Assembly: GCF_022568815.1 (NCBI RefSeq)
Contig: NZ_JAKZHX010000005.1
Coordinates: 62,001-126,000, forward strand
Direction: 5' to 3'
DNA from: Undibacterium paludis
Lineage (GTDB): Bacteria > Pseudomonadota > Gammaproteobacteria > Burkholderiales > Burkholderiaceae_D
DNA: 64,000 nt
Translations under genes and position numbers: made by a program
Part shown: piece by piece, positions 38,621 through 41,572 of the stretch
Position numbering within the stretch: position 1 is the stretch's first letter
How the letters are laid out: every line of letters begins with the position of its first letter
Notes under the pieces: generated by a model
Databases searched by the model: none
Seen by the model: the letters and a program-made list of their open reading frames with translations, nothing else
What the model was told of the DNA's origin: nothing

Positions 38621-39742
38621 ATGAAAACCACAACAATCTGGACGGCAACAATACTGGCATCCCTGCTGGGCTTGAGCGCCTGCAGCACAACCCCGACATC
38701 AACAACGCCCCGCTATCAACTGAGCAGCGACGCCAGCTGGAGCAAGCTCAACACCGTGCCATACAAGGGCAAGCAGGACGATATTTTCTTTGTACAGCCC
38801 GACCTGGGCTGGTACGTCAATGGCGGCGGCAAGATATACAAAACCACGGATGGTGGCAGCAACTGGCAGGAACAATTATCCAAACCCGGCACCTTCTTCC
38901 GCACCGTCGGCTTTGTCGATGCGCAGCATGGCTATGCCGGCAATATAGGCACCGACTACTACCCCGGCGTTACCGACACCACACCCTTGTATGAGACCTT
39001 TGACGGTGGCGCCAACTGGCAAGTTGCCAAGGGACTGGAAGGCATCAGCATCAAGGGCCTGTGCGCGATTGACGTTCTGCATGACAAATCCGGTGGGGCA
39101 ACATCAAAAACCATTATCCATGCCGGGGGCCGCGTCGGTGGCCCGGCTGCCCTGCTGCGCTCCGTTGATGGCGGCGCCAGCTGGAAGAACATAGACATGA
39201 CGCCTTACACAGGCATGATACTCGACGTCAAATTCTTCGATGCCAACACCGGCTTTGTGTTTGGCGCATCCAGCAATGACACCGAAAAATCCCACGCCCG
39301 CATTATCATGACAAAAGATGGCGGCCAGACCTGGAAGACTGTCTACGAATCCATCCGCCCGTTTGAAATCACCTGGAAAGCCAGCTTCCCCACCCGCGAC
39401 ACCGGCTATGTCACCATACAAAGCTACAACCCCGACCCGGCCACCAGCCAGCGCTACGTCGCCAAGACCGAAGACGGCGGCCAGACCTGGCGCGAAGTCC
39501 CCATGGTCAATGACCTGAAAGTCAGGGAATTCGGCATAGGCTTCATCGACGCCAATACCGGCTGGGTAGGTACCGTCGACGGCGCCTACCAGACCACAGA
39601 TGGCGGACAAAACTGGAAACACATCCCCATGGGCCGCGCCGTCAACAAGATACGCCTGCTGCCAACAGAAAAAGGTTTTGTCGGTTATGCGATAGGGGTA
39701 GATGTGTTCAAGCTGACGCAGGAGAATGCGCGTTTGCAGTGA
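38621..39742 (+). CDS. YCF48/BNR-repeat lipoprotein
   Basis: 373 aa. Lipoprotein signal with lipobox LSAC (Cys21) after LLGLSAC. Repeats of the form KTTDGGSNWQE, ETFDGGANWQV, RSVDGGASWKN, MTKDGGQTWKT, KTEDGGQTWRE and QTTDGGQNWKH alternate with GFVDAQHGYAG or GFIDANTGWVG strands, about six blades of a YCF48-type beta-propeller. It follows rapZ by 85 bp. Same family as 3273-4307, but lipid-anchored. The function is unknown; in other bacteria such propellers serve as scaffolds for membrane complexes. Confidence 0.83.
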   Translation: MKTTTIWTATILASLLGLSACSTTPTSTTPRYQLSSDASWSKLNTVPYKGKQDDIFFVQPDLGWYVNGGGKIYKTTDGGSNWQEQLSKPGTFFRTVGFVDAQHGYAGNIGTDYYPGVTDTTPLYETFDGGANWQVAKGLEGISIKGLCAIDVLHDKSGGATSKTIIHAGGRVGGPAALLRSVDGGASWKNIDMTPYTGMILDVKFFDANTGFVFGASSNDTEKSHARIIMTKDGGQTWKTVYESIRPFEITWKASFPTRDTGYVTIQSYNPDPATSQRYVAKTEDGGQTWREVPMVNDLKVREFGIGFIDANTGWVGTVDGAYQTTDGGQNWKHIPMGRAVNKIRLLPTEKGFVGYAIGVDVFKLTQENARLQ

Positions 39743-40012
39743 TCAGAAACGACTACCGCGAGGAATATAGTTGGCTGCCGAATGACGTTGAAGTTGTCGT
39801 TGTTTTTGACCTTTGCAGTTCCGATGTGTCGCTGCCTTTGATGCAAGGCAGAAAATGGAAAAAGAAGGATCGATGTTTGAGGTGTAGCAGGGATTTCGTG
39901 GTGCATGCACCACGCCTGCGTAACGGCATGCGCTTGCAAGCGCATGTTCCTCGGGCAAAGCCGAAGGCGAGTTTTCGAGCCTTCCCATTTTTTGACTTGC
40001 AGCAAAGGGACC

Positions 40013-40098
40013 CCCCTTCAGGGGGATGTTGGCAGGGTTTCGCAAAGCACGCTTTGCGCTGCCAGCATCTAAGCCGCATGCAAGCGGCGCAGTGGAAT
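40013..40098 (+). repeat. structured 86-bp repeat element, copy A
   Basis: Starts CCCCTTCAGGGG and ends GCAGTGGAAT. It folds into three hairpins: a C/G hairpin, a long stem (arms 40025-40035 and 40059-40069) enclosing CGCAAAGC/GCTTTGCG, and a third with arms 40073-40077 and 40084-40088. By my hand alignment it is ungapped and about 79 percent identical (68 of 86) to the reverse complement of 40275-40360. Confidence 0.8.
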
Positions 40099-40274
40099 CG
40101 ACGCCTTGTTGAAGCAGTGCTTCAACCCTTTTTGGCTTACCTTTTTGGCGAAGCAAAAAGGTAAGTAGCCGCCGGTCTACCACCGGCCGGTGATCGTCAG
40201 TCAACAAATGCAGGTTGAGAAAACAGTCCAACGTAAAATCCACATTGCGTCGAACACCCATCCCCATCCCAACC

Positions 40275-40360
40275 ATTCCACTGCGCTGCTTGCAAGCAGC
40301 TTAGAGATTGATGGCGCAAAGCATGCTTTGCGAATTCCCATCAATCTCCCCTTGAAGGGG
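40275..40360 (-). repeat. structured 86-bp repeat element, copy B (inverted)
   Basis: Reverse complement of the copy A type. The long stem has arms 40304-40314 and 40338-40348, the inner palindrome is CGCAAAGCATGCTTTGCG, and the end hairpin is GCTGCTTGCAAGCAGC. At least six stem positions differ from copy A in both partners so that pairing is kept. Confidence 0.8.
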
Positions 40361-40408
40361 ACGGAGCTTTACGGCTACGCTTGAAACCACAGCAAGCAAC
40401 ACCACAAT

Positions 40409-41572
40409 CTAATGCATCACCACCCTGCGCATCTTCTGCGAAATATACGCGAGGCTGACCACACTCATCAGGGCGCAGACGAGGAAAGCGATACCGACGG
40501 CCACAGGGCTCAGGGTTTCGCCCTTCAGGACCTGGTTCATCATCTGGTTTTGTGACAGCACCGGTACCCATTGAAACCAGGCTGGTTCACGGCCAGGGAA
40601 AATGATGGGGATCAAAGAAACGAAAGGGATGAACATCGTCACCATCTGATTGCGTACCTGCGCTTCTTTATAGCTCTTGCAGTCGAGCGATACGGCAATC
40701 TGTATGGCTGCCACACTGGCAGCCAGTGGCAGCAAGACCAGCAGAAAACCCATCGCATCCCTGAAGTTGAACTGGAATTCTGCCTTCAGGGTTTCATTAT
40801 TTATCAGCCATTGCGAAGGAAAAAAACTGAAGATGGTCAGCACTACCACGCCCATGCCGACCAAAGCCACAGCCCCCCATTTGCCCAGGGTCAGTTGCAG
40901 GCCGGTGACGGGGTTCATCATCAGCGGTTCCAGCGAGCCCCGTTCGCGTTCGCCTGCTGTCGTGTCGATGGCGGCATACATGCCGCCCAGCACGATGGCC
41001 ATCAGGACCATCATGGGTAGCATGGTGGTGATGGTCGCCTTGCGCTCTTCCGGTTTTTTCAAATGCTTTTCCCTGACTTCGATGCGCTGTAATAATTCCA
41101 GCGAAACACCGCGCATCATCAGTCCCATGGTGGCGGTTTCTTGTGCGTAGGCTTCAAGCAGGCGACGCAGGGGGCGCACGCCAAATTCAGCCTGGCGGTT
41201 GGAGGTATCGTAGGCGATTTCCAGCGTGCCTTTTTCACCGCTGGCGAGTTTGTCGTCAAAGTCGTCGGGGATCAGCAATACAGGTTGATCCAGCTCCTTG
41301 CTTTGTGACTTGGCTTCATAATCATCGGGGGCGGTCTTGATCTTGTAACCCTGGCGTTCTATGAAGTTTTGCAGGCCGACTGCATGGCTGATACCGCGCG
41401 CCATGATGGAGCGTTTTTCTTCCTGTGACTCCACTTGCGTCAGAACTACGGAAAAAATAAACAGCATCAGCGGCACCCCCAGCAGCGAGCTGATCAGGGC
41501 TACCAGCAGGGTGCGGCGGTCGCGCAGGGCGTCGCGGATTTCCTTACGCAATATGGCGAGCGTTGCATTCAT
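40409..41572 (-). CDS. ABC-2 type exporter permease, NatB-like
   Basis: 387 aa. One N-terminal helix (LLVALISSLLGVPLMLFIFSVVLT) is followed by a large extracytoplasmic domain (about 45-190), then about five helices in the C-terminal half. The block TTAGERERGSLEPLMMNPV between helices is the typical NatB/ABC-2 cytoplasmic element. NatAB systems export sodium or other cargo; the substrate is not determined here. It overlaps the ATPase gene by 4 bp and is the last gene of a three-gene operon. Confidence 0.88.
   Translation of the reverse strand: MNATLAILRKEIRDALRDRRTLLVALISSLLGVPLMLFIFSVVLTQVESQEEKRSIMARGISHAVGLQNFIERQGYKIKTAPDDYEAKSQSKELDQPVLLIPDDFDDKLASGEKGTLEIAYDTSNRQAEFGVRPLRRLLEAYAQETATMGLMMRGVSLELLQRIEVREKHLKKPEERKATITTMLPMMVLMAIVLGGMYAAIDTTAGERERGSLEPLMMNPVTGLQLTLGKWGAVALVGMGVVVLTIFSFFPSQWLINNETLKAEFQFNFRDAMGFLLVLLPLAASVAAIQIAVSLDCKSYKEAQVRNQMVTMFIPFVSLIPIIFPGREPAWFQWVPVLSQNQMMNQVLKGETLSPVAVGIAFLVCALMSVVSLAYISQKMRRVVMH

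Follow-up and report, generated by a model that had tools for sequence, protein, structure and literature searches.

REPs, BIMEs and REPINs are small, palindromic and dispersed, often paired or clustered, and biased to gene ends (PMC3733652, PMC3116915). The GTAG and CGTC super-families of REPs were defined by Di Nocera and colleagues; in the parts of that paper drawn on here, a REP is a single hairpin of 20-40 nt, stem changes within families are complementary, and some REP dimers sit inside other palindromes (PMC3733652). REPs are in turn targets of insertion sequences (Tobes and Pareja, PMC1525189), IS110 elements among them (PMC11208160), with palindromic repeats serving as insertion hot spots. 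MITEs are short, non-coding, dispersed and non-autonomous (PMC10969869, PMC5896051), and quasipalindromes under template switching show paired multi-base changes, perfect stems and snap-back scars (PMC8794818).

How does the repeat described here compare? It is a module of about 70 nt from Undibacterium paludis and its relatives, and it shares with REPs each of the traits listed above except for its architecture, which fits three helices into ~70 nt where a REP has a single hairpin. It further differs from REPs in having a conserved bulge, two palindromic loops, no strict GTAG or CGTC tag and no RAYT link that we could find, and in residing within GTAG- and CGTC-REPs themselves as well as in unrelated repeats. 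As with the REP-targeting insertion sequences, palindromic repeats are its insertion hot spots, but it has no transposase gene, the insert is ~70 nt, and its hosts are hairpins of many sequences. It resembles MITEs in all four respects named, yet lacks family-wide terminal inverted repeats; its ends and helix letters vary, and target-site duplications are rare. Like quasipalindromes, it has paired multi-base changes, perfect stems and a snap-back scar; unlike them, it preserves its unpaired letters and the spacing of its three helices throughout a bacterial family and is found in many places.

Organization of the Locus

The window, the whole 64,000-nt stretch of U. paludis DNA that was analyzed, belongs to a genome of 6.5 Mb in 76 contigs (G000). 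A gene for a YCF48/BNR-repeat protein (38621..39742, + strand; Pfam PF14870, E 1.1e-16) and a convergent gene for an ABC-2 transporter permease (40409..41572, - strand; Pfam PF12698, E 2.3e-22) are separated by a 666-base gap, in which a repeat search finds two inverted arms of 86 nt (40013-40098 and 40275-40360) that are 79% complementary. A preliminary description had named these arms copies A and B, and its hand count of equal positions, 68/86 without gaps, was reproduced by direct count. The same holds for the changes it reported in the outer stem (40025-40035 with 40059-40069), where five pairs carry changes in both partners and one T-G pair is replaced by T-A (G-U to A-U), and for the one double change in the third hairpin, which we read as C-G to T-A.

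That description overlooked the nesting of copy A in element 2 and of copy B in element 3, as well as a third, diverged copy. Element 2 is a host repeat at 39800..40215 (+ strand), and half of element 3, the palindromic repeat CCTTCCCCTTCAAGGGGAAGGTTGGGATGGGGATGGG, lies at 40256..40366 (- strand); the ends of both are approximate and were set by eye. Module A (40027..40096, + strand), of E1 type and ~70 nt, with boundaries set by hand and good to 1-3 nt, stands directly behind the mini hairpin of element 2, CCCCTTCAGGGGG plus A (40013..40026, + strand), its putative insertion point. Module B (40277..40346, - strand), of the same type and 70 nt long, stands directly behind CCCCTTCAAGGGGA of element 3 (40347..40360, - strand), the corresponding putative insertion point. 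The third copy, module C (39879..39951, + strand), has other helix letters and occupies the apical loop of element 2; it is matched by the covariance model R2 described below (G000:C45:101879-101951, E 1.6e-17) and forms a row of alignment A5.

A DNA search of the whole genome for more copies returned 16 places, some holding module sequence and some host repeat only. The part of element 2 at 40005-40175 has a 98% identical second copy at C4:244327-244497, with partial copies elsewhere in the genome. This second locus (L002; G000:C4:244158-244497) carries the same inverted module pair around element 2 as the window, its copy B being degraded on the 5' side. Open frames of 106-177 aa cross the repeats in 39.7-40.4 kb, including one at 39743-40276 (- strand); the 177-aa frame, which matches no Pfam family, is probably spurious and could be annotated as a protein by mistake. 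Promoter- and terminator-like sites number one each in 39700-40420, against 0.3 and 1.1 in shuffles.

Fold and Covariation

The fold of the module comprises helices P1, P2 and P3; P2 has a 5' bulge and a CATG loop, and P3 is centred on CTTGCAAG. With 8-10 flanking bases, copies A and B have folding z-scores of -2.29 and -2.69, and 5 and 2 of 200 shuffles, respectively, fold as well as they do; both of these copies fold better than most shuffles, more than expected by chance. Among seven aligned copies from the same genome, eight pairs are changed on both sides (4.2 in shuffles) and 96.3% of cells pair, against 87.3% in shuffles and at most 45.8% when the structure is slid along the alignment; further pair types (17 against 14.9) do not stand out from the shuffles. 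Alignment A3 was assembled purely by similarity, and all seven of its copies retain the 5' bulge of 5 nt and TGCAAG at the centre of P3.

The covariance model R1 was built from the seven aligned copies. In its own genome it matches 28 places at E up to 10, ten of them above 56 bits, and the weaker matches show the same architecture with other stem letters. This architecture was written as a free-stem pattern, GGGTTTC-N6-CATG-N6-GCC-N13..19-CTTGCAAG; the N6 arms of the inner hairpin are free in it, and each of their six positions pairs in 129-139 of 141 distinct matches, which were not thinned for relatedness. Alignment A5 combines 49 of the 128 distinct 73-mers fitting the pattern (chosen greedily at 14 or more differences) with the three window copies. 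Its pattern-fixed letters are constant by construction except in the window rows, so only the other columns count as covariation; pairs 13-37, 19-36, 55-62 and 56-61 are constant because GGGTTTC, CATG, GCC and CTTGCAAG are fixed in the pattern.

Across these 52 sequences, 94.7% of the cells of a 22-pair structure are paired (at most 41.7% in slid versions). There are 354 two-sided cells, compared with 102.1 after shuffling, and the covariation score is 0.747 compared with 0.177; further pair types, at 56 against 54.1, again do not stand out from the shuffles. Given the alignment and no structure, RNAalifold returns the same fold plus two more pairs. Between P1 and an outer two-pair helix, a G stands opposite an A in 37/52 sequences and an A opposite a G in 28/52, with the middle position free, a 3x3 loop beside P1 that we take to be of the GNA type. 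The E1 type seen in the window has ordinary pairs in place of this 3x3 G.A loop.

The second model, R2, was built from the 52 sequences of A5. The preliminary description had staked its reading, that the folded form itself is selected or copied, on further copies and on covariation. Covariance models have now been built, covariation is clear in the seven-copy alignment and very strong in A5, and R2 finds at least 39 matches in the genome and matches in at least 214/293 genomes of the family. Because further copies exist and covary, that reading is supported.

Distribution

With R1, matches occur in 22 of 60 genomes including U. paludis itself: 20/36 in the genus and 2/24 in other families of the order. 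The free-stem pattern matches 13 of the same 60 genomes, all within the genus, and its reversed control none. Applied to GTDB species genomes, it returns at least 116 stretches, at least 80 of them from named records; among the matches listed, these 80 are from genera that we take to belong to the Oxalobacteraceae or from MAGs labelled Oxalobacteraceae, Burkholderiales, Betaproteobacteria or Proteobacteria.

Copy numbers from R2 are floors and weak members may be missed, given the limited number of candidates scored per genome. The at least 39 matches in the own genome were obtained at E up to 0.01 with 150 candidates scored. In the family survey, where E was up to 1e-4 and ~16 candidates were scored per genome, the at least 214 positive genomes fall into at least 30/40 genera. 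A class sample was held to a different threshold, E up to 1e-6 with 13 candidates scored per genome, and gave matches in the own genome plus at least 1 of 369 others. The module is thus found mainly in one bacterial family, within which its presence is patchy among related genomes; matches outside are rare, and it is not strictly confined. Copies in two other families of the order, L072 (G045) and L078 (G055), score 72.2 and 51.6 bits with R2, are GC-rich and have another P3 loop, and they may represent either spread or old relatives of the module.

Plasmids gave no blastn match to the element-2/module-A stretch and one partial match to the element-2/module-C stretch, covering 43% of the query, in a Variovorax replicon. 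The strict pattern is found in one viral contig, IMGVR_UViG_3300042090_003126, which carries two full modules (L410, L411; R2 85-86 bits) and may be host or prophage sequence. Module copy number follows genome size (rho 0.60), which might be expected of any repeat.

Filled and Empty Sites

The same unit is seen at unrelated hairpin sites that also exist empty, and by such sequence comparisons the module appears to behave as an insertion. One host is element 3 (CCTTCCCCTTCAAGGGGA-AGGTTGGGATGGGG), for which the loci examined hold 14 distinct filled and 13 distinct empty sites, both states occurring within one locus in L063, L068, L082, L084 and L232. The insert lies right behind the hairpin and measures 70-71 nt in 14/14. 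Element 2 has 24 distinct copies without a module in the apical loop and 16 distinct empty sites at its second hairpin, which then has the form GGGAACCCC..GGGGCAGCGACGCC. A GTAG-REP is present in filled (L128) and empty (L189) form in a single strain, Massilia cavernae K1S02-61.

Modules also reside in CGTC-REPs, in GGGTCAG..CTGACCC palindromes, in CCCTCTCCC hairpins and in a MITE-like repeat with ends AGGACTTACGCAAAA. In the genus, this last repeat holds one or two tandem modules (L042-L046, L091, L093, L095, L120). Tandem arrays with a period of 69 nt, close to the 70-71 nt of the element-3 insert, are found in Noviherbaspirillum humi (L161) and in a genome of the genus Undibacterium (L075). 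The latter has 3.5 units of 69 nt at L075:1500-1790, between genes that we read as thiS and thiG, and in its later units the inner hairpin is partly missing.

How general is the association with hairpins? We took 106 sites with dissimilar upstream flanks from 191 distinct modules. An outer inverted repeat of at least 8 nt encloses the module at 17/106 of them (4.0 expected), and one of at least 10 nt at 8/106 (0.47 expected). Sorting by loose patterns places 49 sites in host repeats of eight kinds, 9 beside another module and leaves 48 unassigned; by these patterns window copy A falls under element 3 though it is located in element 2, and L207, under GTAG-REP, looks misassigned, its match being part of a neighbouring hairpin. 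That modules nest in palindromes has a precedent in the REP dimers that, in the part of the paper cited here, sit inside other palindromes (PMC3733652).

Direct repeats of at least 8 nt stand at the predicted ends of 6/106 modules, against 1.4 expected by permutation and 2-4 at shifted positions; two of the six cases (L369, L356) adjoin another module. In one subfamily, some copies (L043, L163, L128, L273) have direct repeats of 8-11 nt on either side. As signs of target-site duplication these repeats are suggestive in this one subfamily only and do not amount to a general rule. No recent transposition of the module was seen in the loci compared.

DNA Palindrome or RNA Strand?

Might the module be a structured RNA, acting in gene leaders or tails as a messenger stabilizer, attenuator or terminator, kept folded by selection and spread only secondarily? 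Its position would fit. Modules lie mostly between genes: in the own genome, where 29/39 copies were scored, open frames of at least 120 aa cover 12, compared with 1096/1297 random places, and over a wider set 17/84 modules are inside open frames of at least 180 aa. The gaps that hold modules are convergent in 21 cases and divergent in 9. Modules tend, at borderline significance, to share their strand with the gene upstream, (+,+) 22 vs (-,-) 10 (p 0.05), among the 62/84 modules scored with rough gene calls, 17 others being inside open frames and 5 lacking a gene on one side.

In 30 gaps between ispG and hisS (L300-L329), sorted by eye, a module, a module-like form or a remnant is present in 12, a GTAG-REP in 7 and a CGTC-like REP in 4, and the other 7 contain nothing of these kinds. 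It looks as though hairpins could replace one another there across species and any of them would serve; the loci are the best 30 of 279 genomes with a match, so the sample leans to the query's relatives. Three short module-free gaps (L306, L310, L317) are also without the hisS leader, and the empty state there may be a deletion. In L321 (G150), near-identical copies of the hisS start lie on both sides of the module, with 21 exact bases within a longer match of ~30 bases; the target may have been duplicated when the module inserted or when the insertion was repaired. At the Massilia-type locus L198 the open frame of ispG extends into the module.

Selection on a single RNA strand should tolerate G-U pairs but not A-C mismatches. 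In A5, the two are equally rare, at 14 each of 1144 cells, which suggests DNA palindromes and not one RNA strand. Two other counts put G-U a little ahead, with 30 vs 17 in another pair set and 12 vs 8 in that set without near-duplicates. The loci contain too few tRNAs for their stems to serve as a yardstick. The balance leans towards stems kept as palindromes at the DNA level and is not decisive. Also against an RNA, no gene family recurs beside modules among the nine largest protein clusters, presence among related genomes is patchy, and Rfam offers no convincing family: a tRNA is the sole Rfam 15 match in the window at gathering score, and the three matches in 39700-40450 at E up to 5 are all far below their gathering scores. 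We therefore consider a structured RNA unlikely. Of the three readings that the preliminary description had left side by side, a REP-like element, a structured RNA and a hairpin-recognized mobile element, the evidence favours, without proving it, a mobile DNA repeat associated with hairpins over an RNA.

Template Switching

Another suggestion is that there is no selection on the fold at all, the stems being quasipalindromes kept perfect by replicative template switching and spread by the same replication errors. One locus suggests how this might work. In L313 (G316), again an ispG-hisS gap, an exact reverse copy of the module's 5' arm stands where its 3' half would be. The result is a 50-nt perfect palindrome that is absent from all other loci compared, and the relatives L198 and L305 keep the usual module form. 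It looks like one template-switch event; a footprint of this kind is ascribed to template switching, and the mechanism described, in the portion of PMC8794818 used here. One argument of the preliminary description, that drift would not preserve pairing in this way, does not hold: it overlooks that template switching is able to make paired changes mechanically. The rarity of both G-U and A-C would also follow. However, correction to perfect palindromes should erase the bulge, as in L313, and bulge and TGCAAG are kept in all seven rows of A3, where no pattern constrained the unpaired letters. Bulge-free copies may have been missed, because R1 and R2 both contain the bulge. On these grounds we regard template switching by itself as quite improbable.

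Search for a Mobilizing Factor

What moves the module? Around modules at 116 loci, 3933 open frames were clustered and the nine largest clusters annotated. No transposase is among them. Six are ordinary proteins by Pfam; the other three have no Pfam match and overlap modules, and are therefore read as frames through the repeats. The ordinary proteins are ABC exporters, GGDEF/EAL proteins, dehydrogenases, LysR regulators, kinases and the like.

The preliminary description had also pointed to a RAYT transposase, and this link was not borne out: in 30 Y1 loci examined over up to 1.5 kb not one module was present, module and Y1 counts are uncorrelated (rho 0.18, p 0.30, n 36), and the own genome has one Y1 match against at least 39 module matches. 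As far as these tests reach, a RAYT is not supported as the mobilizing enzyme. That the module is a GTAG-type REP mobilized by a RAYT (Y1) transposase is very unlikely, for although GTAG precedes P1 in 14/52 sequences and inverted pairs and clusters occur as in BIMEs (e.g., L161), the exact tag is limited to those 14, the second letter of the tag is variable, and the tag's G and A lie mostly opposite A and G within the 3x3 loop. Candidates for the mover are a shape-recognizing recombinase or replication itself.

Discussion

In the wide sense, a REP is a dispersed palindromic repeat with many copies mostly between genes, and the module is all of these. It differs from the described types. For a GTAG-type REP, the unpaired tag at one end is absent from most members (14/52 rows of A5 have GTAG). 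For a CGTC-type REP, the A5 consensus is without the CGTC tag and the 8-9 bp stem with a 4-5 nt loop, and CGTC-REPs appear as its hosts. For a MITE, terminal inverted repeats shared by all members are lacking, the module ends, by reading, differing by subfamily (..GTGGA, ..TCCTNA, ..GCGCCCTGCAAGGG). Given the three-helix fold, the conserved bulge and loops, the free tag letter and the range of host hairpins, we infer that the module is a new family of REP-like, hairpin-targeted repeats, with REPs as its nearest kin and a mobility mechanism that is itself a matter of inference. The titles and abstract openings searched, with most subscription papers outside their scope, contain no description of such a family, which is weak evidence of novelty.

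We think it probable that the module is a non-autonomous, REP-like mobile repeat of ~70 nt, a single DNA strand of which folds into three helices and integrates at DNA hairpins. The filled sites would then have arisen by insertion. The site of integration would be either the apical loop of a short stem-loop or the position immediately after it. A trans-acting enzyme or the replication machinery may recognize and copy the strand in its folded state, for instance on the lagging-strand template, with the unpaired constants (the bulge, the loops and the G.A pairs beside P1) as presumptive recognition marks. Fast drift of the stem letters without loss of perfect pairing could come from repeated template switching between the arms. 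A resident copy would then behave as REPs in general do near the ends of genes, and might have accidental effects on messenger ends. Several observations weigh against this explanation: the mobilizing gene was not found, clear target-site duplication is lacking in most copies, 48/106 sites are unassigned to a host repeat, no recent transposition was seen, the three module-free ispG-hisS gaps without the hisS leader may be deletions, G-U leads a little in the other pair sets, there is a borderline strand bias, modules do occur inside open frames, and copy number follows genome size.

A bolder version, which we put forward tentatively and with considerable doubt, is a mobile element that recognizes shape and not sequence. 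A three-helix strand of ~70 nt would be able to integrate at nearly every hairpin in DNA. It would carry no gene and might need no special enzyme; stalled forks and template switching at hairpins would both move it and maintain its shape. If this were true, the sequence could vary almost everywhere except in a few loops, and nesting would make palindromic repeats grow.

The family is a clean, naturally occurring system in which to test how palindromes of the REP kind originate and multiply. The many filled and empty sites in several backgrounds, a fold that can be read from covariation and the failure to find a RAYT nearby make the search for a factor that recognizes folded DNA a concrete one. 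The module also carries a warning. Strong covariation is usually taken as proof of a functional RNA, and here, with G-U about as rare as A-C and one template-switch-like scar, it may stem from DNA palindromes. Finally, with the ispG-hisS gap one can ask if hairpins of this sort are interchangeable in use within bacterial operons.
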